Positions 3,265-28,205 of a stretch of 34,796 bases of DNA are shown here, piece after piece. Below the pieces are notes generated by a model, which saw only the letters and a list, made by a program, of their open reading frames with translations, did not search any database and was not told the DNA's origin. This DNA is from Mycoplasmatota bacterium (lineage in GTDB: Bacteria; Bacillota_I; Bacilli_A; Izemoplasmatales; Hujiaoplasmataceae): assembly GCA_027859085.1 (NCBI GenBank), contig JAQIBJ010000078.1, positions 1 through 34,796 of the forward strand, written 5' to 3'. Every line of letters starts with the position of its first letter. Position 1 is the stretch's first letter. Both the position numbers and the translations under genes were made by a program.

Positions 3265-3322
3265 AACATAAGTAATTTTACAGTAAAACCCCATAATGAC
3301 AAAACACATAAATTAGTCTGCA

Positions 3323-3351
3323 TTGTTATTATGTCGAGAAAGAAGTATAAT
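3323..3351 (+). promoter_or_regulatory. Sigma-A type promoter of the REC/GGDEF/HD-GYP gene
   Basis: TTGTTA (3323-3328), 17 nt, TATAAT (3346-3351). The start of transcription would be near 3358, giving an approximately 83-nt leader before ATG 3441. No clear riboswitch fold was seen in this leader. Confidence 0.65.
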
Positions 3352-3440
3352 TAAATAGTAACTTAATGTGATTCTAGGGTATTTTGTATACATAACCATT
3401 TGAATTTCGAGTTGATAATGTTATTGTAGGAGAACTAAAG

Positions 3441-5747
3441 ATGGATGAAAGAAAACTAAAAATTTTAATTATAGATGATGATGCCGATAATTTAGCAGCT
3501 TTTAAAAATAATGTTTCTAAAGCACTTCCTGGAACGGAAGTTCTTACTTCTTTAAATGGGTTGCAAGGTATAGAACTTGCAAAAACCCACGAACCTGATG
3601 TTATACTGATTGATGTATCTATCAGCAAAATTGATGGTTTAAAAATTAGTCATCTTATTAAGAAAGATAAAAATCTTCAGACAACTCCTATGCTATTTAT
3701 CACTGACTTAGAAGGTGATTTAGAATTTAAGAAAAATGTTTTAAAAGCAGGAGCAGATGCTTTTCTTGTCAAACCAATAGATGATATGTTATTAATAACA
3801 CAACTAAAAGTTATGGCAAAAATCAAAGAGAGAAACATACTCATCAGCACTCAAAAAGATAGGCTTGAAACTTTGGTAGAAGAACGGACAAAAGAGTTGC
3901 GAGCATTCTATAAACTATCCGAATTATCTGAAACGAAAGATATCTCGCAGGATGAATTGTTACAGGATTTTATCAATTTATTTCCAAGCTGTATGCAATA
4001 CCCGGATATCACTTATGCCAAGATAAAGTTAGGTGATATGAATTTCCAAACGAAAAACTTTACAGAATCCATATGGAAACTATCCAATCCAATCAATATC
4101 AATGGGTTAGAAGCGGGGATAATTGAAGTTGGTTACCTTGAAGAACGTCAGGAATCTGATGAAGGACCATTCATGAAGGAAGAGAGACACCTTTTGAATG
4201 CTATCGCTGAAAGGTTGGGACACATCATCGAACGTTTTCAGAGTAAAATAAACACGATAGAATCTCAAGCTATAATTAAAGAAAGTGAAAATCGTTTGGA
4301 TATGTTTTTCCAACAATCATTCACAGGATTTTTTATCATGTTGCAGGATGAACCAATTGAATGGAATGATTCTGTTGATAAAGAAAAAGCACTTGACTAT
4401 ATTTTTGAACATCAAAAATTGACGAAAATTAATACAGCAATGCTAAAACAGTATGCGTATAGTAAAGAAGAAATGGTTGGCAAATCACTTAATGATATGT
4501 TTTCTTATGATCTAGAATACTGGAGAACGGTGCTCAGACAAGTGTTTGATGAAGGTAATAAACATAGTGAAACCTATCAAAAAAGAAGTGATGGGACAGA
4601 AATGTGGATAGAAGGCGATTTTATTTGTTTATATGATTCTTTAGGAAGAATCATAGGGCACTTTGGAAATCAACAAGATGTAACATTGCGTATTCAAAGA
4701 CAACAAGAAATTGAATATTTGAGCAATCACGATTACTTGACGGATTTATATAATAGACGTTATTATTTTGAACAATTCAAACAACTTAATCATCCCAGCT
4801 GTTATCCACTTGGAATCATGATGATTGATGTAAACGGGTTAAAGATAGTTAATGATGCTTTTGGACATGCAATAGGTGATATAGCACTCAAAACACTTGG
4901 AAATGTCTTGAAAGATACTTTCAAACAAAATGATGTTGTTTCAAGAATCGGTGGAGATGAATTTGCAGTTCTTTTGCCAAATACAACACACAAAAAACTA
5001 CAACGATATAAAGATCAATTAAAAGAGTCTGTAAAACAGCACAGAATAGAAAATATCGAGTTATCACTTGCGATTGGCTATGAGTTAAAACAGAATCAAA
5101 ATCACGATAAAGATGTTGATGATATTCTAGAATTAGCTGAAAATCATATGTATCGACATAAATCCATTGAAGGAGCCAGCGTTCGAAATCGTGCTATCAA
5201 TGCAATTTTACAAACATTAACTGATAAATATGAAGTCGAGAGAAATCATTCAGTCGAAGTAAGTCACTTCTGTAAATTAATCGGACAACAATTAAAATTA
5301 AGAGAAGATGAAATAAAGGGACTTGAACAAGCCGGAATGTTTCATGATATCGGAAAAATTTCAATCCCAGACAGCATTCTGAATAAACCAGGTAAATTAA
5401 CCAATCAAGAATATGATGTCATTAAGACACATACTGAAGTTGGCTATCAAATTCTAAGAGCCGCAGATGAGTACTCTGATTTAGCAGTTCATGCTCTTCA
5501 TCATCATGAAAGATGGGATGGCAAGGGATATCCAAGTGGAATGAAGGGTAACGATATTCCATTATTCTCGAGAATCATCGGAGTAGTTGATGCTTATGAA
5601 GCAATGACGGCTGATAGACCTTACCGTAAAAAAATGAGTGAAGAATATGCAATCCAAGAGATTAAGAAATACTCAGGAACACAATTTGATCCGAAAATTG
5701 CAAAAATATTTATAGAGAAAGTTCTAACTAAACAAGATATAAAATAG
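3441..5747 (+). CDS. Response regulator with PAS, GGDEF and HD-GYP domains (cyclic-di-GMP turnover)
   Basis: 768 aa; RBS TAGGAG. Domains in order: REC receiver (about 5-127; acidic IDDD at 11-14, phospho-acceptor Asp58, Lys111 of the KP motif); a coiled linker (130-155); a sensor-like region without clear motifs, perhaps GAF-like (160-270); PAS/PAC (about 282-420); GGDEF diguanylate cyclase with an intact signature (504-508) and Asp463; HD-GYP phosphodiesterase with HDIGK (635-639) and HHERWDGKGYP (688-698). Both opposing catalytic centres look intact, so phosphorylation or PAS ligand may switch net activity. The inhibitory RxxD I-site is KQND (495-498), so product inhibition may be weak. No partner histidine kinase is in the window. 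Soluble; no membrane segment. Confidence 0.93.
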   Translation: MDERKLKILIIDDDADNLAAFKNNVSKALPGTEVLTSLNGLQGIELAKTHEPDVILIDVSISKIDGLKISHLIKKDKNLQTTPMLFITDLEGDLEFKKNVLKAGADAFLVKPIDDMLLITQLKVMAKIKERNILISTQKDRLETLVEERTKELRAFYKLSELSETKDISQDELLQDFINLFPSCMQYPDITYAKIKLGDMNFQTKNFTESIWKLSNPININGLEAGIIEVGYLEERQESDEGPFMKEERHLLNAIAERLGHIIERFQSKINTIESQAIIKESENRLDMFFQQSFTGFFIMLQDEPIEWNDSVDKEKALDYIFEHQKLTKINTAMLKQYAYSKEEMVGKSLNDMFSYDLEYWRTVLRQVFDEGNKHSETYQKRSDGTEMWIEGDFICLYDSLGRIIGHFGNQQDVTLRIQRQQEIEYLSNHDYLTDLYNRRYYFEQFKQLNHPSCYPLGIMMIDVNGLKIVNDAFGHAIGDIALKTLGNVLKDTFKQNDVVSRIGGDEFAVLLPNTTHKKLQRYKDQLKESVKQHRIENIELSLAIGYELKQNQNHDKDVDDILELAENHMYRHKSIEGASVRNRAINAILQTLTDKYEVERNHSVEVSHFCKLIGQQLKLREDEIKGLEQAGMFHDIGKISIPDSILNKPGKLTNQEYDVIKTHTEVGYQILRAADEYSDLAVHALHHHERWDGKGYPSGMKGNDIPLFSRIIGVVDAYEAMTADRPYRKKMSEEYAIQEIKKYSGTQFDPKIAKIFIEKVLTKQDIK

Positions 5748-5760
5748 GATGATATAAGTT

Positions 5761-5800
5761 AAGCCACTAGATGATAGAAGCAACTTTCTTGTGGCTTTTT
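5761..5800 (+). terminator. Rho-independent terminator after the REC/GGDEF/HD-GYP gene
   Basis: AAGCCAC (5761-5767) pairs with GTGGCTT (5791-5797), followed by a T run. It starts 14 nt after the stop codon. Confidence 0.8.
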
Positions 5801-5850
5801 ATAAACCAAAAACAAATAAATAACCTGTCAAGAGAAATATTGAATTTTAT

Positions 5851-5967
5851 GACGATTGTGCTAAAAGCTGTAAGCTTCTAGTGCACAAAAAGTAAACTTG
5901 GTATAACTCTAGAGTAAAACACGCTATTTTTTAGTGTAAAACATGATAAACTTAGTAATGACAAGAC
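5851..5967 (+). repeat. Structured intergenic repeat, copy 1 (117 bp)
   Basis: Shares near-identical sequence with 8437-8554 and, minus its first ~30 bp, with 9797-9883. Core: GTGCACAAAAAGTAAACTTG, then an ACTCTAGAGT palindrome, a CGCTA/TAGTG hairpin and ATAAACTTAGTAATGACAAG. A left hairpin pairs TTGTGC (5856-5861) with GCACAA (5883-5888) around an AAGCT/AGCTT stem. This copy sits between two convergent terminators, so it is not a promoter for a neighbour. No coding potential seen. Confidence 0.85.
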
Positions 5968-5997
5968 AACATAAATCAAATAACAGAATATTTTATA

Positions 5998-6039
5998 GAA
6001 AAAACGACTTCAATTACACTACGTGTGACTTAAGTCGTT
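5998..6039 (-). terminator. Terminator of the tetR operon
   Basis: On the minus strand AACGACTT (6039-6032) pairs with AAGTCGTT (6010-6003), with an inner ACAC/GTGT stem, followed by TTTTTT (6004-5999). It lies just past the stop codon of the last membrane-protein gene. Confidence 0.8.
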
Positions 6040-6069
6040 ATTTTAATTGCTTTATATAAAATAGATATT

Positions 6070-6780
6070 CTATATCTGATTCTTACGCATTAATAATAAT
6101 TTTCTAGCAACAGAAAACTGCCAAATTAGTACAATTATACCTGCTATTCCTGCAAACCCGATGATTATAGGGTTCAATTCAAGTACGAAAGTAATTAGTA
6201 TTAAGTAAATTGATAACATTCCGTAGCCAATCAAGCCTAGAATGGAAACATATTTCTTAATGAAATCAGTTTTAAATAAAATTAAAGCAAGTAGTATATT
6301 TGCTATAGATAAGATGAAATATCCGTAGAAAATCGATACACTCCCATGTGCGCTCCTAGTTAAGATAATCTCAGCTTCATCCAAGTATCCCTGCATTGTA
6401 ACACTGGAATTAGAAACGAAGTACTGATTACTTAAGTTCATTAAATCAATAGAACCATTATTAAGTATAAACAATATAGAACCACTAATAGACAAGATCA
6501 AACTTATTGTAGCTAATTTTTTTGTTCTTTTTCCAATAATAATTACAATTAAGATATAGTAGGACAAGATAAAAAATACATTGATGAAGTTCAGAAAATC
6601 CAGATAATATAAACCGATAAATTTGCTTTCGTTAAATAGATTGAAGTATTCTAATGCTGTTTTTGGTACGCTGTCTGTTGATAAGCTCATACCAATAATA
6701 ATATCCAGTATTGTAATTAAACCTGCAATAATTATCAATATTGCAGCACATAATTTAATTAGTCTGTTTTTTTTATTCAT
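6070..6780 (-). CDS. Six-to-seven-helix membrane protein, DUF4386-like, second gene of a tetR operon
   Basis: 236 aa, very hydrophobic, with about six transmembrane helices (roughly 10-30, 60-82, 88-108, 148-168, 175-200, 205-225). It is a paralogue of the next upstream protein: both have an approximately 20-residue extracytoplasmic stretch, then a FIGLYYLDFLNFIN-type motif (here) or FLGLLSLDFLYLIN (partner). The shape and motif resemble DUF4386, a family of unknown function often controlled by TetR regulators; the family call is from memory. The start ATG is 5 nt after the upstream stop, with an AGAGAGCAGG RBS inside the upstream gene. Last gene of the operon, followed by a terminator. Confidence 0.65.
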   Translation of the reverse strand: MNKKNRLIKLCAAILIIIAGLITILDIIIGMSLSTDSVPKTALEYFNLFNESKFIGLYYLDFLNFINVFFILSYYILIVIIIGKRTKKLATISLILSISGSILFILNNGSIDLMNLSNQYFVSNSSVTMQGYLDEAEIILTRSAHGSVSIFYGYFILSIANILLALILFKTDFIKKYVSILGLIGYGMLSIYLILITFVLELNPIIIGFAGIAGIIVLIWQFSVARKLLLMRKNQI

Positions 6781-6785
6781 AAAAA

Positions 6786-7478
6786 TTACCTGCTCTCTTT
6801 ATGACTTAAAGCTAATTCTCTGAACTTTCTCATGATTAGAATAATAAATACTGTCCATGGAATTAAGGATAGCAATGAGAATATCATGCCTAATAAACCT
6901 GCAGATGAGGGTATGATCATGAATAAACCGGAAATCAAGCCCCAAACACCAATAGATTTCTTGAAATTTGGGCTTTTAAATAGAGAATACGTGAAAAGGA
7001 TTATTGCCATGCCCGAAAGCACATAATAAACATCAAATGATGTACCAGTATATCCAGCCATTAATGCTTCTCCAGCTGACAAATATCTAATTATTTCTTC
7101 TGGTTGTGCCTGAAAATACATTCTACTTAGAGTAAGCATTTCAAATGCAGGATTAGATGGATAATAACAAGCTATACCGATTAAACCTAAGGCTAGTGCC
7201 AATATACTATTAGTTGGTTTTTCATGATACAGTAAGATAAAGAGTGTTAAGAAGATGACGATAAGAATAATGTTATTGATTAGATAAAGAAAATCCAAAC
7301 TTAAAAGTCCTAAAAATGGGCTTTGATGGTAGAGTTCAAACAGTCCTATCACGGTGTCCGGTGGAGGTGCAATAATAAATATAAGAATCTGTATCGGTAT
7401 AAGAATGAGCATTACTATTGATAAATACCATGCAACTTTGAAAAGTGGTTGGAATTTTATCTTGAATTCTTGAGTCAT
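6786..7478 (-). CDS. Multi-pass membrane protein, DUF4386-like, first of a paralogous pair
   Basis: 230 aa with about six to seven predicted helices and a basic C-terminal tail. It shares layout and the LxxLDFLYLIN motif with the protein encoded immediately downstream, so the two probably arose by tandem duplication and may form a heterodimer. It lies 21 nt downstream of the TetR gene, in the same operon. Expression is therefore expected to respond to whatever ligand the TetR protein senses. No transporter motif or catalytic residue is visible. DUF4386 is the best family guess. Confidence 0.65.
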   Translation of the reverse strand: MTQEFKIKFQPLFKVAWYLSIVMLILIPIQILIFIIAPPPDTVIGLFELYHQSPFLGLLSLDFLYLINNIILIVIFLTLFILLYHEKPTNSILALALGLIGIACYYPSNPAFEMLTLSRMYFQAQPEEIIRYLSAGEALMAGYTGTSFDVYYVLSGMAIILFTYSLFKSPNFKKSIGVWGLISGLFMIIPSSAGLLGMIFSLLSLIPWTVFIILIMRKFRELALSHKESR

Positions 7479-7499
7479 GTGATGTATCTCCAGAAGATT

Positions 7500-8084
7500 T
7501 TATGATTTTTTGAGTACATAGGTTACTGTTTTTACTAATTCTTTCTCTACATCATCTCTTTTAATTGATCCGTTAGATGAAAAACTAAGCATAATCATTC
7601 CGTGCAAAGCGTAAATAATAGTTTTAGTAATTACTTCAATATCATTTGGTTGTATGATTTTTTCTTGTATCAACCTATAAAAAGAAGTTTGCCACATCTT
7701 ATCAAATTCCCCTTCTAGTTTTTGAGAACTATCATCTCCTACAGGCTGAATGAATGAGTAAAAATAGAAGAAGCGAAAAATGTTAGGGTTTTGAAAGTAG
7801 TAGTTGATATAGGTGATAAAAACATCAAGAATTTCTTCAAAGGGGTCTATTTTATGAGAAGGAGTAGATGTAAGTTCGGTAATCATATCTTCAATCATAT
7901 CAAGACGCAATTCCCAAAAAAGAGCATCTAAATCTTTAAAGTAATAGTATACATTCGTATAAGAGTAACCGGTAATTTCAGCTAAATGACGAACCGTTAG
8001 AGATTCATAACCTGAAGTTTTAATTATTCTTTTAGCAGCTTGAACTATATTTTTTTTTGACCATTCTTTTTTATTTTGCTTCAT
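7500..8084 (-). CDS. TetR/AcrR-family repressor, autoregulated
   Basis: 194 aa. The N-terminal helix-turn-helix (about 12-58) has the typical TetR pattern: IVQAAKRIIKTSGYESLTVR, then LAEITGYSYTNVYYYFKDLDALF. The C-terminal ligand-binding part has no recognisable specificity. RBS TGGAGG precedes the ATG. It heads an operon with two DUF4386-like membrane proteins. Its own promoter carries two copies of the palindrome TAACTtAGTTA just after the -10 box, so it should repress its own operon until an inducer binds. Confidence 0.92.
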   Translation of the reverse strand: MKQNKKEWSKKNIVQAAKRIIKTSGYESLTVRHLAEITGYSYTNVYYYFKDLDALFWELRLDMIEDMITELTSTPSHKIDPFEEILDVFITYINYYFQNPNIFRFFYFYSFIQPVGDDSSQKLEGEFDKMWQTSFYRLIQEKIIQPNDIEVITKTIIYALHGMIMLSFSSNGSIKRDDVEKELVKTVTYVLKKS

Positions 8085-8100
8085 ATAACCTCCATAAAAT

Positions 8101-8160
8101 TAACTTAGTTATAAAATTTTAACTTAGTTATAATATACAGTATAGTAAAATGTTTGTCAA
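8101..8160 (-). promoter_or_regulatory. tetR promoter with two palindromic operators
   Basis: Read on the minus strand: TTGACA (8160-8155), 17 nt, TATATT (8137-8132), then two copies of the perfect palindrome TAACTtAGTTA (8130-8120 and 8111-8101), 19 bp apart centre to centre, within repeated TAACTTAGTTATAA blocks. The first operator covers the transcription start and the second the early leader, a layout suited to repression. Confidence 0.85.
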
Positions 8161-8436
8161 GCATTTTTAATAAGATTAGCATAAAAGTAAGCAAGCAGAC
8201 CACAACTCCATTGTTAATATATAACTGACTGCCATCATTAGCTTTGTGTAATGATTTACATAATAAAATTGAATTTCTATTTATATATAATAGTTATATA
8301 ATGAATGGAACTGGGAAAATATTGGAGAAAACCAATGTAAAACATTAGTATTTGTTTATGGAATCTCATATGTATTTTTTAGTTTATAAATATTGTATAG
8401 TCTTAAATTCTTGTCGATAGATAAGTCACATTTTGT
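8161..8436. other. Intergenic stretch without a recognisable gene
   Basis: About 275 bp of AT-rich DNA between the tetR promoter and repeat copy 2. Only frames of about 25 codons or fewer are present, and no RNA gene was recognised. Confidence 0.6.
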
Positions 8437-8554
8437 GACGATTGTGCTTTAAGCTGTAAGCTTCTAGTGCACAAAAAGTAAACTTGGTATAACTCCAGAG
8501 TAAAACACGCTATTTTTTTAGTGAAAAACATGATAAACTTCATAATGACAAGAC
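8437..8554 (+). repeat. Structured intergenic repeat, copy 2 (118 bp)
   Basis: Nearly identical to 5851-5967, including GACGATTGTGC at the left end, the TTGTGC/GCACAA outer stem, AACTTGGTATAACTC and AATGACAAGAC at the right end. Differences: ACTCCAGAGT in place of ACTCTAGAGT and one extra T in the hairpin loop. Lies between the divergent tetR and SDR genes. Confidence 0.85.
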
Positions 8555-8589
8555 ATTTAAATTATACTAAGTTTATAACTTTTATATAA

Positions 8590-8611
8590 ACGGCTCAATA
8601 GAGCCGTTTTT
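8590..8611 (+). terminator. Orphan rho-independent terminator
   Basis: ACGGCTC (8590-8596) and GAGCCGT (8601-8607) with loop AATA, then TTTT. No plus-strand gene lies between 8085 and this point, so it would end a non-coding transcript that includes repeat copy 2, or is a relic. Confidence 0.7.
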
Positions 8612-8783
8612 GTATGTTTTGAGTAAAAAACATTAAATAATAAGATTATACCTTTTTTATTGATAAACATTGAAATTACTCTAGAATGATAATGCTTGTC
8701 TCTGTAGAAATAGGTTAAATGGTGTTATAATAATAATGTATTAATATTTAGGTAATTTACAAAATATATAAAGGAGGAAGTAT

Positions 8784-9539
8784 ATGAAATTAAAAGGAAA
8801 AGTAGCAATTGTTACTGGAGCAGCTTCAGGTATGGGAAGATCGATTTCTATATTGTATGCTCAAGAAGGGGCAATGGTTGTTGCATCTGATATCAATGTT
8901 GAAGGTGCAAAAGAAACTGTTGCAACTATTACTAAGGCTGGTGGCACAGCTATTGCAATCAAAACTAATGTTGCAAAACAAGATGATATTGAAGAAATGG
9001 TTAAAACTGCAGTTAAGACCTACGGTACAGTTGATATTTTAGTCAATAATGCAGGTATTATGGATAACATGGAACCCGTTGAAGAACTAAGTGATGAACA
9101 ATGGGATCGTGTGATGTCAGTTAATACAGGATCAGTAATGAAAACAATGAGACAAGTACTTCCTATTTTCTTAGAAAAGGAAAATGGGGTTATTATCAAT
9201 ATTTCTTCAGTTGGTGGTCTATATGGTAAGGTTGCTGGAGCAGCTTATACAGCAAGCAAACATGCTGTTATTGGATTAACAAAGAACACTGGATATATGT
9301 ATGCAACAAAAGGCATTCGTTGCAATGCTATTGCTCCTGGTGCAGTTAAGACAAATATTGCATCTACGATGACGGCAGTTTCAGATTTCGGTGGCGCTAG
9401 AACAGGTTTGAATCTACCAGTTAACCCACGTTATGGTGAAGCAGAAGAAATAGCAACTATTGCATTATTCTTAGCTTCAGACGATTCAAGTTTCGTCAAC
9501 GGTACTGTGTTGACAGCTGATGGCGGATGGATGGCTTAA
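8784..9539 (+). CDS. Short-chain dehydrogenase/reductase (SDR), probably NAD-dependent
   Basis: 251 aa, standard length for a classical SDR. Visible motifs: TGAASGMG (11-18) for the cofactor, NNAG (88-91), Asn114, Ser142, Tyr155 and Lys159 of the YxxxK active site, and a GGW ending. Asp36 at the end of the second strand favours NAD(H) over NADP(H). It belongs to the broad 3-oxoacyl-ACP reductase / glucose dehydrogenase-like group; the substrate cannot be read from the sequence. Strong RBS AAAGGAGG. It stands alone between an orphan terminator and its own terminator, so it is a single-gene transcript. No regulator motif seen upstream. Confidence 0.92.
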   Translation: MKLKGKVAIVTGAASGMGRSISILYAQEGAMVVASDINVEGAKETVATITKAGGTAIAIKTNVAKQDDIEEMVKTAVKTYGTVDILVNNAGIMDNMEPVEELSDEQWDRVMSVNTGSVMKTMRQVLPIFLEKENGVIINISSVGGLYGKVAGAAYTASKHAVIGLTKNTGYMYATKGIRCNAIAPGAVKTNIASTMTAVSDFGGARTGLNLPVNPRYGEAEEIATIALFLASDDSSFVNGTVLTADGGWMA

Positions 9540-9560
9540 TTATTTAAAGTTAAATAGAAT

Positions 9561-9613
9561 AAAAAAGGTATTAACGATAGATAGAAATTTCTATTGTAGA
9601 ATACCTTTTTTTT
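9561..9613 (+). terminator. Terminator after the SDR gene
   Basis: AAAAAAGGTATT (9561-9572) pairs with AATACC plus T8 (9600-9613); the loop contains the perfect palindrome ATAGAAATTTCTAT (9581-9594). Confidence 0.8.
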
Positions 9614-9796
9614 ATATGTATATGACTTATGTTATAGATCTTTAATTTTAGCCTTTTCTATTTCAGATTGTCTTGCTTTGAATCTTTATTTAAAAATCAG
9701 ATAGTGTAAAACAAGTAAAGAGAAGTTACTAGTGCTATAATAAAAGAAAAAAAAGTTGATTGGTATGGTTTTAAAATGGTTGATACATTACCATAT
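9614..9796. other. Intergenic stretch without a supportable gene
   Basis: AT-rich spacer between the SDR terminator and repeat copy 3. One short minus-strand frame looks coding-like but is too short to call. Confidence 0.5.
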
Positions 9797-9883
9797 GTGC
9801 GCAAAAAGTAAACTTGGTATATCTCTAGAGTAAAACATGCTTTTTTTTTGCTGAAAAACATGATAAACTTAGTAATGACAAGA
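9797..9883 (+). repeat. Structured intergenic repeat, copy 3 (left end missing)
   Basis: Matches copies 1 and 2 from GTGC(A/G)CAAAAAGTAAAC to AATGACAAGA. It lacks the left AAGCT hairpin arm, and the internal hairpin is changed to CATGC...GCTG. It ends 21 nt before the start codon of the NERD-like gene, whose leader it would form. Confidence 0.8.
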
Positions 9884-9903
9884 TAAACAAAAAGGGGAAA
9901 TTT

Positions 9904-10719: not shown

Positions 10720-12129
10720 ATGACAAAACTATTTGGCGATAAAGCATTTTATAAACGCGTCATCATTATAGCGATGCCAATTGTTATTCAACAGTTAATT
10801 ACCTCATCTGTTCAATTGGTTGATAATTTAATGGTTGGTTCACTTGGCGAATTGGCGATTGGTGCTGTTTCAGTTGTTAACCAGTTATATTTTGTTGTTA
10901 TTATTGTAACTTTTGGTGCCATGGGTGGTGCAGGTATTTTTTCTGCACAGTTTTTTGGTTCGAAACAACACGATAAATTAAAACAAACATTTAGGTTTAA
11001 ATTATTAATAGCGTTGGTATTATCAACATCAGCAATCTTGATATTTAGCTTATTTGGTGAGTATTTCATTAGTCTTTTTACCGATAATCCGACCACTATT
11101 AGTTGGGGAATGGATTACCTTAATATTGCCAAATGGGTGATGATACCATTAACCATATCATCTGCAATTTCTTCTACATTTAGAGAAATAGGGATTACAA
11201 AGCCCTTATTGAAAATTTCTTCTGTTGCCATTCTTTTAAATGTTGTTTTAAACTATTTATTGATTTTTGGTAATTTTGGATTTCCAAAACTCGGGATTGA
11301 AGGGGCAGCGATAGCGACACTTGTATCAAGAACGTTAGAATTTATACTTCTATATGTTTTACTGGTATTTAAAGGAAAAGTATTTAACACAAGCTTACTA
11401 AAAATATTTAGAATTGATGGTCTGTTATTTAAGGTCATTATCATTACTGCTATTCCTTTAGTGATCAATGAATTTTTATTTTCATTTGGACAAACATTCT
11501 TTATGCAATCCTATGCGACAAGGGGCGACAATGCCCTAGCAGCGATTAATATCACTAATGCCATATCTCAGTTGGTCTTTATCACATTCGGTGGTATAGG
11601 GACAGCTGTGGCTGTTTTTGTTGGTAATACAATGGGTGAGAATAAATTAAAAGAAGCAAAAGCAAATTCTATGAAAATCATTGTGTTTGCGGTCATGTTT
11701 GCGTTTGTTCTAGGGATTGTATTGTTTATTCTTAGTTTCTTTGTTCTAAATCTATATGATATATCATCAGAAACAGAGTTTATTGCGAAGTTTAACATCA
11801 GAGTCAATGCCTTTATGATTCCAGTCATCTCACTTTATATGGTGCTTTATTTTACTTTAAGGTCAGGTGGAGATACCCGATCAACCATGATTATGGATTC
11901 AGGGTATATTTGGGTGGTTCAAGTACCAGTGATATTTGTTTTATCAAGATTTACAAATTTACCGGTTATATTCTTGTATTTAATCATTCAGTCTTTAGAA
12001 TTGCCTAAGGTAATTTTGGCATATTCAAGATATAAAAAAGAATATTGGTTAAGAAATCTAGCCGTTGAAAATGACGAAAATGCTGAACGTTTAATGATTA
12101 AACAAAGTGTTGAACATCTTGACAATTAA
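10720..12129 (+). CDS. MATE-family multidrug/metabolite exporter
   Basis: 469 aa with about twelve hydrophobic helices in two halves, as usual for MATE transporters, which export organic cations or drugs in exchange for Na+ or H+. Characteristic N-terminal pattern: AMPIVIQQLITSSVQLVDNLMVG; similar signatures in the second half (AIPLVINEFLFSFGQTFFMQ). The ATG at 10720 is chosen over TTG 10699 because AAGGGGTGAG (10707-10716) is a well-placed RBS for it. The substrate is not predictable. Its last codons contain the -35 box of the serS promoter. Confidence 0.9.
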   Translation: MTKLFGDKAFYKRVIIIAMPIVIQQLITSSVQLVDNLMVGSLGELAIGAVSVVNQLYFVVIIVTFGAMGGAGIFSAQFFGSKQHDKLKQTFRFKLLIALVLSTSAILIFSLFGEYFISLFTDNPTTISWGMDYLNIAKWVMIPLTISSAISSTFREIGITKPLLKISSVAILLNVVLNYLLIFGNFGFPKLGIEGAAIATLVSRTLEFILLYVLLVFKGKVFNTSLLKIFRIDGLLFKVIIITAIPLVINEFLFSFGQTFFMQSYATRGDNALAAINITNAISQLVFITFGGIGTAVAVFVGNTMGENKLKEAKANSMKIIVFAVMFAFVLGIVLFILSFFVLNLYDISSETEFIAKFNIRVNAFMIPVISLYMVLYFTLRSGGDTRSTMIMDSGYIWVVQVPVIFVLSRFTNLPVIFLYLIIQSLELPKVILAYSRYKKEYWLRNLAVENDENAERLMIKQSVEHLDN

Positions 12130-12153: not shown

Positions 12154-12361
12154 AATAAGGCGATGAAGAGGATAATGAATTGATTTTCTTTTGAAGAGAG
12201 TTAGTGGTTGGTGGGAACTAATAAGAAAACAAATCTATCTACCTTGGAGTTAAGATTAACCATCTTCGTATTTCTGCGTTAAAGAATAAGTGCTAGTTTC
12301 TAGAACTAAGGTGGTACCGCGGTTAATTCGTCCTTTACAGTAGTAAAGGACTATTTTTTTT
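12154..12361 (+). promoter_or_regulatory. T-box riboswitch controlling serS-alr
   Basis: Contains the T-box sequence AAGGTGGTACCGCGG (12308-12322), followed by the terminator stem GTCCTTTAC/GTAAAGGAC (12330-12338 with 12343-12351) and a T run. The antiterminator would use the T-box side. In Stem I, TTTTCTT pairs with AAGAAAA below the apical part, and serine UCU codons follow at 12234-12236 and 12238-12240; one is probably the specifier. T-boxes bind uncharged tRNA and then allow read-through, so serS and alr rise when Ser-tRNA is uncharged. The bulge reads UGGU. Confidence 0.92.
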
Positions 12362-12380: not shown

Positions 12381-13649
12381 ATGATCAATCAAGAATATAT
12401 TTTGAACCAACCAGAAATGGTTCAAAAAGCATTGTTAAAAAAAGGTGTTGATGTCAATTTTGATGGTTTTATTGATATGCGAAACAAACGTGTGTCTTTA
12501 ATCCAAGAGATAGAATCAATACGTGCGAAAAGGAATCAATTGTCAAAAGATATTGGCGCTTATAAAAGAGAGAAAAAAGATACAACTGCTTTGTTTAAAG
12601 AAATTGAATCTTTGAAGGGCTCTATAACAGATCAAGAAGAAAACTTAAAAGAGATTGAAAGTTTAATGGAAAAGTTCTTGTTGAAACTTCCAAATTTACC
12701 AGATGAAGATTTATTGGCTGGTGACAAAGAAAATAATCAAGTTATTTTTACACACTTAGAAAAACCAGTATTTGATTTTGAAGTGAAAGATCATGTGGAA
12801 CTTGCGACAAGTTTAAACATCATTGATTACGAAAGAGCTGCGAAAATTAGTGGTAAAGGGACTTGGATCTATTCTTCAATTGGCGCAAGATTAGAATGGG
12901 CTTTAATTAATTTCTTTATAGATCAACATCATAAAGACCAATATGAGTTTATGTTGTTACCTCATATCCTTAATTATCAAAGTGGAATCACTGCAGGACA
13001 GTTTCCAAAGTTTGAAGATGATGTTTTTTGGTTGGATGGAGATGAAAAACAAAAGTTCTTGATTCCTACTTCTGAAACAGCATTGGTTAATATTCATCGA
13101 AATGAAATTTTGGAATTAAAAGATTTACCGAAAAAATATTTTTCTTATTCACCATGTTATAGAAAAGAAGCTGGTAGTTATCGTTCTGAAGAACGCGGAA
13201 TGATTAGAGGTTATCAATTCAATAAAGTTGAAATGCTACAATACACTTTACCGGTAGAATCAGACAATGCATTTAATGAAATGCTTAACAAAGCAAAATC
13301 TTTAATGAATCAATTGGGCTTACATTACCAAGTGTCTAAATTAGCCGCTGGTGATATATCATTTGCGATGAGTCGTACCTTTGATATAGAAGTGTATTTG
13401 CCAAGTATTGATATCTATAAAGAAGTTTCTTCAGTTTCAAATTCAAGAGGTTTTCAAGCAAGAAGAGGTATGATTCGTTATCGTAAAGCTGATGGTACTA
13501 TTGATTACTGTCATACATTAAATGCTTCTGGACTTGCGACATCAAGACTTGTACCGGCGATTTTAGAACAAAACCAACAAGCAGATGGTTCAGTTAAAAT
13601 ACCTGAAGTATTGATTCCATATATGGGTGGTATAAAAGAAATTAGGTGA
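12381..13649 (+). CDS. serS: Seryl-tRNA synthetase
   Basis: 422 aa, full length. Charges tRNA-Ser with serine using ATP, in the cytosol. The N-terminal part (about 25-100) is the long antiparallel coiled-coil arm that grips the tRNA-Ser variable arm. The class II catalytic core follows: motif 2 around YRKEAGSYRSEERGMIRGYQ and motif 3 as ASGLATSRLVPAILEQNQ. RBS AAAGGAG. Controlled by the serine T-box just upstream. The stop TGA is 4 nt before alr, so the two genes are co-transcribed; this TGA also shows that TGA is a stop in this organism. Confidence 0.97.
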   Translation: MINQEYILNQPEMVQKALLKKGVDVNFDGFIDMRNKRVSLIQEIESIRAKRNQLSKDIGAYKREKKDTTALFKEIESLKGSITDQEENLKEIESLMEKFLLKLPNLPDEDLLAGDKENNQVIFTHLEKPVFDFEVKDHVELATSLNIIDYERAAKISGKGTWIYSSIGARLEWALINFFIDQHHKDQYEFMLLPHILNYQSGITAGQFPKFEDDVFWLDGDEKQKFLIPTSETALVNIHRNEILELKDLPKKYFSYSPCYRKEAGSYRSEERGMIRGYQFNKVEMLQYTLPVESDNAFNEMLNKAKSLMNQLGLHYQVSKLAAGDISFAMSRTFDIEVYLPSIDIYKEVSSVSNSRGFQARRGMIRYRKADGTIDYCHTLNASGLATSRLVPAILEQNQQADGSVKIPEVLIPYMGGIKEIR

Positions 13650-13653
13650 CGAT

Positions 13654-14754
13654 ATGATTGATCGAGTCAAAGTATTAATACATTTAGATAATCTATCACA
13701 TAACTATAATTTATTAAATAAAATCCATCATCAAAAACGTGTAATGGCGGTTCTTAAAGCTGATGCTTATGGACATGGCGCTATTGAATCCGCGAAGCAT
13801 CTCGAAAAAAGTGGATGCGATTTTTTCGCTGTGACTGATTTAATAGAAGCGATTGAATTAAGAGAAGCGGGTATTCAATCAGACATATTGATGTTTGGGA
13901 AAACATCACCTAATAATATTGAAAATATTAAAAAATATAATCTAACACAAACAGTTGATTCTTATGAATATGCAAAAACATTAAATGCTTGTGAAATAGA
14001 AATTAAAACACATATTGTGATTGATACAGGTATGAGCCGTTTTGGTATTTATTGTCATCAAGAAAAGGACTTATTAAAAGCAACCGATGAATTTATTGAT
14101 ATTTTGTCTTTGACCTATTTAAAAAATCAAGGAGTTTATACGCATTTCGCAGCTGCGGATGAAGACCAGGAATCATTTACAAAGGATCAATATGACATAT
14201 TTATTGAACTTATTAAAGCAGTTGAATTTAAAGGTTTCAATTTAGGTTTGAAGCACTGTTCAAATAGCGCTGGCTTACTTAAATATGGTGATAGACAACT
14301 TGATATGGTGAGAACGGGAATTGCTATGTATGGCTATCCTCCAATTAAGAGTGAGTTAAATTTCTTACCAGTGATGGAAGTTTTTGCTAAAGTGATTTCG
14401 ATTAGGGATATAGAGATTGGTGATGGGGTTAGTTATGGTTTAACTTACGCTGCTAAAAAACCAATGCGTATAGCCTCAATTGCTATTGGCTATGCAGATG
14501 GATATAACAGGTTGTTTTCCAATCAAGATTATTTTGTCTATAATAAAACAAAACTTAATGTTTTAGGCAGAGTATGTATGGGTGTCACCATGGTGGATGT
14601 TACAGGTGTTGATATTTCAGTCGGTGATTTTGTTGAAGTGTTTGGCCAGAATAAATCATTAGATAAAATGGCTAAGAAAATTGATACAATCACTTATGAA
14701 CTTTTAACAAACATGTCAAAAAAGAGAGTTGTATTTGAGTATAAAAAAGCATAA
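13654..14754 (+). CDS. alr: Alanine racemase
   Basis: 366 aa, usual length. PLP-dependent interconversion of L- and D-alanine, the latter for peptidoglycan. PLP lysine is Lys35 in AVLKADAYGHG; the second catalytic base is the tyrosine of SYGLTY (Tyr261 most likely). MSRFG and IGYADGYNR motifs fit the family. RBS AGGTGA overlaps the serS stop codon. Being in a serS T-box operon is unusual as a pairing, but both are basic functions. Presence of alr suggests a wall-bearing cell or recent descent from one; the window has no other wall gene to confirm this. Confidence 0.95.
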   Translation: MIDRVKVLIHLDNLSHNYNLLNKIHHQKRVMAVLKADAYGHGAIESAKHLEKSGCDFFAVTDLIEAIELREAGIQSDILMFGKTSPNNIENIKKYNLTQTVDSYEYAKTLNACEIEIKTHIVIDTGMSRFGIYCHQEKDLLKATDEFIDILSLTYLKNQGVYTHFAAADEDQESFTKDQYDIFIELIKAVEFKGFNLGLKHCSNSAGLLKYGDRQLDMVRTGIAMYGYPPIKSELNFLPVMEVFAKVISIRDIEIGDGVSYGLTYAAKKPMRIASIAIGYADGYNRLFSNQDYFVYNKTKLNVLGRVCMGVTMVDVTGVDISVGDFVEVFGQNKSLDKMAKKIDTITYELLTNMSKKRVVFEYKKA

Positions 14755-26447: not shown

Positions 26448-28205
26448 ATGATTAAAAAGATTTTACTAATTTTCGTGCTTGTTTTTTCAATGGGTGTTGT
26501 AATGAGTTGCTCAGGGTACATTACCACTGAAACCTACGTGACAGAATTACCCACAACAGAAGCTCCAACAGAGGAAATAACAGATGGAACATCAGATATC
26601 ACTACTGAAATTCCAACGACTGAAGAATTAACTGGTGAAGAAACAACATCAGATATCACTACTGAAATTCCAACCACTGAAGAACCAACTGGTGAAGAAA
26701 CAACAACTGATATTACTACTGAAATTCCAACGACAGAAGTGCCAACGACAGAAGATATATACTATGATGATTATATTGATTTGTTGGATGTTCACACGAT
26801 GGCTGATGGGTCACAAGTTGAAGTGAGTGGTGTTGTATACTTTATGACACAAAACGGATATTATATCCAAGACGACACTTATAATTTATTTATTTTTACC
26901 AATACAACAACAAGTGTTGATTTAGGTGATCGCATTGTTATTAGTGGAGATGTAACAACATATAGGGAAGTTAAACAAATTCAAAATCCTGTTTTAGTAG
27001 AAACAACTGCTTATGAAATGGATATTACTCAAGATGTTTTAAATTTCGAATATGGTGTGACTGATTTAGAACCTGGATACATCTATAGCATCACAGGTGA
27101 AGTGCGTATAGAAGGTACATATAACACATCTTATTTATATGTAGGAAATACTAAGATTGCTGAAATTTATTATAAGTCACTTAGTCATTCTATTTCTGCC
27201 ATAGAATCTTATGCAGGAGAAATGATTACCGTTGATTTATTGTATTATGCAGTTGGAGATGAAGTTGAACGTTTTGCTTTCCAAGGCTCAAGTTCACATA
27301 TCTCGGTCTTTATTCCTGATGAATCAGAAGCGCTTCTTGAAGATGCTAATGTATTACCAACAGAAAAACTATTATTTGGTAATCATGATTTTGGACAAGG
27401 GTATTATGGGTCTACTTATGAAATAACGAACATTAGCGGTGACGCGAGTTCATTTGTAACATATAATGGTTCATATTTAAATGTTTTAAAACCTTCAGAA
27501 GCTGAAGGAGATCAAACAGGAGTTGTCACTATTCAAGTCAGTCTTGGTAGTGAAGAACCAATTATAAAAACAATTGATATTATCGTTAAAGCAGAAGGCT
27601 CATCAACTGTTGATATGGCTTATTATCAAACTGCAGCTGGATTAACAGGTAATGATTTATTTAATGAATTAAATGCAATTATTAGTCAAGGCACAGGAAC
27701 GATGAGTTATGATTACGCCAAAGTTATTCTTGAAGAATCTGATCGTGATCCTAATAATCCTAGTAATGTTATATTGGTTTATACAAGAGAATCAGTTAAA
27801 GGTGCTTGGGATTATCCGAATTGGAACCGTGAACATGTTTGGCCGCAATCAAAATTAGAGGGAGCGCCTAAGGGCGATTCCCATAATTTAAAACCATCAG
27901 ATGTTCAAGAAAATAGTAGTCGCGGAAACCTACCGTTTGGATATATGACGGGTAGTGGTGTATACGAACCTCATGATGAAGTAAAAGGTGATATTGCTAG
28001 AATTATCTTTTATATGGCAACAATGTATACACAGTTAAACATCAATAGTTCAACCATTGGGGATTTACAAATTTTACTTGAATGGCATATGACTGATCCT
28101 GTGGATGATTTTGAAAGAAATAGAAATGAAGTAATTTATTCATATCAAGGAAACAGAAATCCTTTTATTGATTACCCGCAATTCGTGGAAGAAATTTGGG
28201 GATAG
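26448..28205 (+). CDS. Secreted lipoprotein nuclease: Thr-rich stalk, OB-like domain, endonuclease I domain
   Basis: 585 aa. A lipoprotein signal peptide (KK then LLIFVLVFSMGVV) ends in lipobox VMSC with Cys21 as lipid anchor. A Thr/Glu-rich stalk (about 25-105) has 19-residue repeats. Then come an OB-fold-like part (about 110-195, VEVSGVVYFMTQNGYYIQDD), an Ig-like or unknown part (290-385), and an endonuclease I / NucM domain (about 395-585) with the beta-beta-alpha metal site NREHVWPQS (His463 as base) and SHNLKPSD. The cell-surface enzyme should cut DNA or RNA outside the cell, probably for nutrient nucleosides or phosphate. Own promoter and terminator. Confidence 0.9.
   Translation: MIKKILLIFVLVFSMGVVMSCSGYITTETYVTELPTTEAPTEEITDGTSDITTEIPTTEELTGEETTSDITTEIPTTEEPTGEETTTDITTEIPTTEVPTTEDIYYDDYIDLLDVHTMADGSQVEVSGVVYFMTQNGYYIQDDTYNLFIFTNTTTSVDLGDRIVISGDVTTYREVKQIQNPVLVETTAYEMDITQDVLNFEYGVTDLEPGYIYSITGEVRIEGTYNTSYLYVGNTKIAEIYYKSLSHSISAIESYAGEMITVDLLYYAVGDEVERFAFQGSSSHISVFIPDESEALLEDANVLPTEKLLFGNHDFGQGYYGSTYEITNISGDASSFVTYNGSYLNVLKPSEAEGDQTGVVTIQVSLGSEEPIIKTIDIIVKAEGSSTVDMAYYQTAAGLTGNDLFNELNAIISQGTGTMSYDYAKVILEESDRDPNNPSNVILVYTRESVKGAWDYPNWNREHVWPQSKLEGAPKGDSHNLKPSDVQENSSRGNLPFGYMTGSGVYEPHDEVKGDIARIIFYMATMYTQLNINSSTIGDLQILLEWHMTDPVDDFERNRNEVIYSYQGNRNPFIDYPQFVEEIWG
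26589..26738 (+). repeat. 57-bp tandem repeats in the nuclease stalk
   Basis: Unit ACATCAGATATCACTACTG... starts at 26589, 26646 and 26703 (period 57 bp, 19 codons). The first two copies are almost identical; the third is diverged and partial. They encode TT(S/T)DITTEIPTTEE-type stalk segments. Confidence 0.9.

Follow-up and report, generated by a model that had tools for sequence, protein, structure and literature searches.

Intergenic repeats in a Mycoplasmatota contig are probably junction halves in integron-like arrays of mobile gene cassettes

The stretch of DNA analysed here, hereafter the window, comprises 34,796 nucleotides (contig JAQIBJ010000078.1 of the Mycoplasmatota bacterium assembly GCA_027859085.1) and contains three copies of an intergenic repeat. 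Our analyses strongly support that each copy is the left half (L) of a recombination junction and ends in ...ATGACAAGACA at the junction boundary. It is likely that these left halves belong to arrays of mobile gene cassettes that are organized like those of integrons and are moved by a serine recombinase. A cassette would consist of a right half (R), one or more genes, and a left half; cassettes would be joined head to tail as L-R, and arrays would be able to start immediately behind the terminal CCA of tRNA and tmRNA genes (CCA-R). Related bacteria appear to exchange these cassettes and to anchor them at the ends of tRNA genes. In the open literature, a coverage that leaves out subscription papers and preprints, we found no description of such a system.

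Left halves are made up of repeated words of ~13 bases (AGTAAACTTGGTA-like) followed by the fixed end ATAAACTTAGTAATGACAAGACA, and we distinguished four main types, A to D, with type A being that of the window. In type B, AGTAAAGTTAGTCTAGAGGTT is repeated and the end is GATAAAGTCCATAATGACAAGACA; type C repeats GAGTAAAACTCCGTA; and type D repeats AGTAAACTTAGGTC and ends in GACAACACA. A scan of the fetched loci, from which L058, L063, L064, and L068 were left out as duplicate contigs of genomes G013, G066, and G009, gave 96 candidate sites, of which 93 were kept and 3 dropped. Across these 93 curated sites, the information content was 1.35 to 2.47 bits at positions −9 to −1 and 0.00 to 0.22 bits at each of positions +1 to +30, the left-side values being inflated because the scan required a match over the last 11 bases, while the right side was unconstrained. 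At the boundary base, left and right halves reassort, such that the four left-half types combine with several right-half families. Using loose word rules for the right halves, by which one assignment to family (i) (G004:1437809) is doubtful, the 93 sites were distributed as follows.

Type A: family (i) 6, (ii) 1, (iii) 5, (v) 3, (vi) 4, (vii) 2, other 18
Type B: family (i) 6, (ii) 4, (iii) 1, (iv) 1, (vii) 1, other 7
Type C: family (i) 7, (ii) 2, (iii) 3, (iv) 1, other 12
Variant of type C: family (i) 1, (ii) 1, other 1
Type D: family (i) 1, (ii) 1, other 3
One unclassified left half: family (i)

Junctions with a family (i) right half form a near-palindrome, ATAAACTTAGTAATGACAAGA-CA-TCTTGATTATACCAAGTTTAT. 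The family (i) word GGTTNNTTATACCAAG had seven exact matches in 14 genomes, six of them directly behind a known site or a tRNA and the seventh in G017; the search with one mismatch allowed was uninformative because it returned 33 matches versus 22 for the reversed control. The five bases past the boundary stay with the right half: GGTTR, CGATG, and TCTTG were each found more than once, following different left halves or tRNAs. Five-base target duplications, which the first-pass annotation had suggested looking for, and Tn916-like coupling bases between L and R were both rejected, because these five bases are not duplicated, differ within arrays, and travel with R.

A stricter scan, which covered more loci, yielded 99 sites distributed over 43 contigs, and in each of the 25 clusters of at least two sites, the sites are on one strand. 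The spacing between sites in the set from the scan of the fetched loci ranged from 46 bp to 13.7 kb with a median of 1.4 kb (n = 49 spacings). Matches between genomes (at least 300 bp, at least 85%) met a site in nine instances. In two of these, the match continues across the site, as a pair of neighbouring units is shared; the remaining seven represent six independent cases, since one shared-unit pair was counted twice through overlapping loci, and all stop close to the boundary, at distances of 0, 0, 0, 0, 1, and 4 nt. The shared units are the following, with the two pairs assigned to different families marked as such.

G000 and G010: 93.4% identity
G000 and OKU6: 96.8% identity
G066 and G241: 98.1% identity, different families
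G013 and mb192: 95.3% identity
G001 and G041: 99.4% identity across 3035 bp, different families
G241 and OKU6: 96.0% identity

Gene-plus-site units are thus shared between genomes, and the proposal in the first-pass annotation that the repeats are part of something mobile is borne out. Its suggestion of an element like a miniature inverted-repeat transposable element (MITE) fared less well. Type A copies of ~143 bp with TGTC...GACA-like ends would suit a MITE or insertion-sequence ends that hop into intergenic DNA, but the left ends are variable or truncated, the right end alone is common to all types, and the DNA shared between genomes consists of a gene and a site and stops at that right end, which makes this explanation very unlikely. 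Known insertion-sequence ends were also tried and rejected, as the IS91-like transposase ends of contigs C42 and C16 in the window's genome hold no site in the core scan. Small head-to-tail cassettes in a single orientation, with acetyltransferase, phosphotransferase, and toxin-antitoxin genes, are also what a canonical integron with attC sites and an IntI integrase would contain. However, the boundary, as judged by eye, follows ACA versus the GTT core of attC, and IntI (TIGR02249) scored above the cut-off in 1 of 61 genomes, the site-free G033 (G066 and carriers from other families are outside the 61), so that a canonical integron is the least probable of the explanations weighed. The G033 gene (C174:2319-3263; 433 bits) was the sole integron integrase above the cut-off and may be foreign because G033 is listed with 6% contamination.

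Separately, at locus L049 (G009 C18), the antitoxin/Fic/phosphotransferase unit of C42 is flanked, near 10989 and 12980, by a different repeat, GGGACACTTTTAAGTG...TATGGCACCATA, which is perhaps a second boundary family.

The tRNA and tmRNA genes beside arrays were placed using ARAGORN, and the DNA behind 26 of the listed ends was inspected. At 13 of the 26 ends, CCA is followed directly by a right half known from array sites, as follows.

tmRNA: G001, G004, G013
tRNA-Cys: G001, G004, G013, G009, G031
tRNA-Ser: G041, G066
tRNA-Leu(cag): G028
tRNA-Gly: G014
tRNA-Ala: G001

No recognised right half was present at the other 13 of the 26 ends, namely, those of L009, L043, L049, L103, and L123, tRNA-Lys of L177, tRNA-Val of L181, and tRNA-Cys in G030, G003, G000, G017, G028, and G033; yet the cassette behind the CCA in L009 occurs elsewhere. 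Behind an identical tRNA-Cys 3' end, a right half is present in 5 of 11 genomes and absent in 6. In the window's genome, the unit behind tRNA-Leu(gag) is also found in another metagenome-assembled genome (MAG) and in G176, which belongs to another family. The distance from tRNA-Cys to tRNA-Lys is 62 bp in the window's genome versus about 14.6 kb in G001 of the same genus, in which three type C sites lie between the two genes; from the sequences, these would be the empty and the occupied state, respectively, of one locus. Pieces resembling tRNA 3' ends (GTTCGAATCC and GTTCAAATCCCC...CCACCA) were also noticed in L045 (about 13560-13640) and L126 (about 1040-1070), where they lie next to serine recombinase genes, with no tRNA gene found nearby. 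In L061 (1-98; mb192), the last left half of the array adjoins the reverse complement of a tRNA-like 3' end (GCACGGTTGACGGGATTTGAACC).

Based on the junction positions, supplemented with Pfam matches for the genes, the array of the window is composed of the following features.

3281..3306 (+): diverged type C left-half core with 3 mismatches, the first junction of the array (core scan and sequence)
3307..5968 (+): cassette 1, a response regulator-PAS-GGDEF-HD gene (3441-5747, +) and a type A left half
5826..5968 (+): copy 1, type A left half with the boundary after 5968
5969..8555 (+): cassette 2, genes and a type A left half
6070-8084 (all minus): genes of cassette 2, two DUF4386-like membrane proteins (the DUF4386 match of the first falls short of the Pfam cut-off) and a TetR regulator
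8412..8555 (+): copy 2, type A left half with the boundary after 8555
8556..8580 (+): family (i) right half, TTTAAATTATACTAAGTTTATAACT, which is the inverted counterpart of the end of the left half
8556..9885 (+): cassette 3, a short-chain dehydrogenase gene (8784-9539, +) and a truncated type A left half
9797..9885 (+): copy 3, a type A left half that lacks the left part and ends in GACAAGATA, with the boundary after 9885

The three copies lie where the first-pass annotation had placed them (5851-5967, 8437-8554, and 9797-9883) and share one orientation, but copies 1 and 2 are longer than claimed, extending over about 5826-5968 and 8412-8555. Identity to copy 2 is 94% for copy 1 (E 5.3e-46) and 90% for copy 3 across its 87 bases (E 1.2e-27). 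Their gene contexts are convergent, divergent, and tandem, as reported, and they are free of open reading frames (ORFs) in that none of at least 80 aa overlaps a copy and the longest mechanical frame inside a copy has 44 codons. The repeated TAAACTT word, said to recur about 70 bp apart, recurs at 54 to 55 bp (5893/5947, 8479/8534, and 9809/9864). The suspected decayed fourth piece at 3283-3313 is real but of a different type, corresponding to the type C site that ends at 3306.

Two paired stems had been read as conserved in the repeats. An alignment of 27 copies shows conservation of the TTGTGC hairpin; the CGCTA/TAGTG stem is absent from the consensus fold. The preservation of the hairpin (TTGTGC..AAGCT/AGCTT..GCAC) in these 27 type A copies would agree with a family of small structured RNAs, as had been suggested, or with regulatory elements. 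On the other hand, compensatory changes were found in 0 of 11 predicted pairs among the 27 copies, in which the hairpin varies too little for a good test; there was no Rfam match over the repeats at the gathering threshold; and types B to D have just the end in common with type A. A small RNA family or regulatory elements therefore seem highly improbable. Elsewhere in the window, the sole Rfam match at the gathering threshold was a T-box leader at 12154-12338 (+) (RF00230, 106 bits), and three tandem 57-bp repeats, which by eye form a threonine-rich stretch, are located at 26588-26758 (+) within ORF 26448-28205.

The first-pass annotation had also expected further copies in the genome and its relatives, and both were found. 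Searching the window's genome with copy 2 gave nine matches (best E 7.7e-57), which are clustered on 3 of 109 contigs: three on C58, which is the contig of the window, four on C42 (one of them short), and two on C16, the right ends of which are damaged and which are outside the 96 candidate sites. The later scan identified further sites in this genome, i.e., type C at C58:3306, type B at C107:31641, and a short one at C42:5306. A 151-base version of the repeat matched 11 of 101 genomes, including its own, with 77 to 96% identity outside its own genome; the weak matches revealed that the last ~24 bases are common to all copies, the left parts differing. The exact pattern AAASTYNNTAATGACAAGACA had 36 matches in 15 of the 90 genomes of the order, while the reversed control had 0, and was present in 17 of 395 genomes drawn from the class, of which 12 were from the same order, four from family f12, and one from family f10. 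The type A word was found in eleven named stretches with titles of Tenericutes, Acholeplasmataceae, Bacillales, or Bacillota. The exact pattern had no match in IMG/VR, and blastn gave no match in plasmids and phages. In L213 (8090-8200; G176), we observed a chimeric site with a type A-like left part and a type B right part.

In several genomes, large serine recombinases with Resolvase, Recombinase, and Zn-ribbon domains recur, usually as a pair, in modules that also hold helix-turn-helix (HTH) proteins and a tyrosine recombinase. The best NCBIfam models of these serine recombinases are CcrB, CcrC, and CcrA, with scores of 134 to 142 bits versus cut-offs of 700 to 900. Among 13 modules of this kind, two (G013 C64 and G013 C30) reach a contig end, leaving 11 that could be tested; large serine recombinases of other lineages (G001 at tRNA-Cys, G003, G041, and G013 C20) were left out of this count. 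Six of the 11 adjoin a junction, which is located 231 to 487 bp from the end of the gene:

tRNA-Cys: G004 and G013 (C9)
tmRNA: G013 (C47)
type C site: G013 (C31 and C96)
type B site: G176

The right half is family (i)-like in five of these six modules, that of G176 being different. In G004, the right half of the tRNA-Cys module, GGTTGATTATACCAAGTTGCTTTATAGCGTTTGACG, is almost equal to the R behind a type C site of G001. The one full-length type C match of G004 lies 47 kb away from the right half of this module and on the same strand, at a position where the far end of the element would lie. At G004 locus L107, a type B left piece without a right end (8172-8215) is located between the tyrosine recombinase of a module and its serine recombinase pair, and a gene that is reverse transcriptase-like by eye (12668-13654) lies beyond it.

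The enzyme is probably a serine recombinase that crosses over at CA. The ends ...GACA and ...CCA have just CA in common, and this, together with the near-palindrome around CA, is what a serine recombinase with a two-base crossover predicts. In the proposed mechanism, a circular cassette with L-R would be inserted after a terminal CA by a CcrB-like large serine recombinase, CA would be the two-base crossover, and the recombinase would be supplied by larger elements with the same R end. Several observations weigh against this proposal. The palindromic family (i) was found at just 22 of 93 junctions under the loose rule, with one assignment doubtful; five of the 11 testable modules are away from a junction (two in G004, at 82.9 kb and 621 kb, and those in G010 C16, G270, and G066 C21); and the window's genome and G006, which both carry arrays and are both incomplete MAGs, had no PF07508 protein, the window's genome having just a broken serine recombinase piece on C15. 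Moreover, repeated words such as those in L are atypical of serine-integrase sites, and the modules include a tyrosine recombinase.

The last two points would fit the same arrays being moved by a tyrosine recombinase, either the XerA-like enzyme of the modules or the Xer proteins of the host, with the repeated words, which resemble arm-type sites, serving as arm sites and with one-strand exchange as in integrons or SE elements (strand-biased circularizing integrative elements of Vibrio). Consistently, the site carriers G009 and G006 have one and two PF00589 proteins, respectively, with PF07508 weak in G009 and absent in G006, and SE elements are described in PMC9345347 as inserting with a 6-bp crossover region. 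On the other hand, G009 showed no tyrosine recombinase of the module type. Tyrosine recombinases usually need or exchange an overlap of 5 to 8 bases, but here ...GACA and ...CCA agree in CA alone and the next five bases remain with R. We therefore consider movement by a tyrosine recombinase unlikely. Tyrosine integrases of ~290 aa near tRNAs were also tried as the enzyme and were rejected, having no convincing adjoining site and just core matches with 6 mismatches.

Integrons are the textbook bacterial route for collecting single genes as cassettes. It is possible, and we propose it tentatively, that the arrays described here are a counterpart of independent origin, in which a serine recombinase acting in trans collects cassettes at many tRNA and tmRNA CCA ends and the cassettes are exchanged between families without an integron integrase having been found. 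If so, cassette capture would have evolved more than once, with an integron-like layout but different sites, a different anchor, and probably a recombinase of a different class. Such a system would explain near-identical genes in distant Tenericutes-like genomes and raises the question of how one enzyme accepts many tRNA 3' ends. The sequence tag ATAATGACAAGACA can be used for finding the cargo.

Among known systems, the staphylococcal and enterococcal cassette chromosomes (SCC and ECC) are similar in having large serine recombinases, which often occur as a tandem pair (here, CcrB, CcrC, and CcrA are the best models, with scores far below their cut-offs), in inserting at the 3' end of a gene, and in that elements free of recombinases accumulate side by side. 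In PMC6222049, dyad symmetry in ECC is described for attR and the circle and not for attL, which is the same pattern as here, where the symmetry is in L-R and not in CCA-R. By contrast, the targets here are many tRNA and tmRNA CCA ends rather than rlmH, and the units often contain one to few genes, with several arrays per genome. The ECC sites carry TATCATAA according to PMC6222049, while the sites here are without it and end in ATGACAAGACA. SE elements share site-specific integration and an unusual use of sites. Their core genes include two tyrosine recombinases (intA/intB), their crossover region is 6 bp, and their fixed targets are few, and the part of PMC9345347 that is accessible describes no arrays of single-gene cassettes for them; the cassettes read here are without a tyrosine recombinase, while the modules have one. 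Integrons are similar in having small one-strand cassettes that are arranged head to tail, each end in their own recombination half, and are shared between species, as well as in a cargo that includes acetyltransferase, phosphotransferase, and toxin-antitoxin genes. They differ in that no IntI above the cut-off was found in the array carriers among the 61 genomes, in the boundary, and in the anchoring at tRNA CCA ends. Altogether, the system would work like an integron, probably by the chemistry of cassette chromosomes, and the features tested place it in neither of these families.

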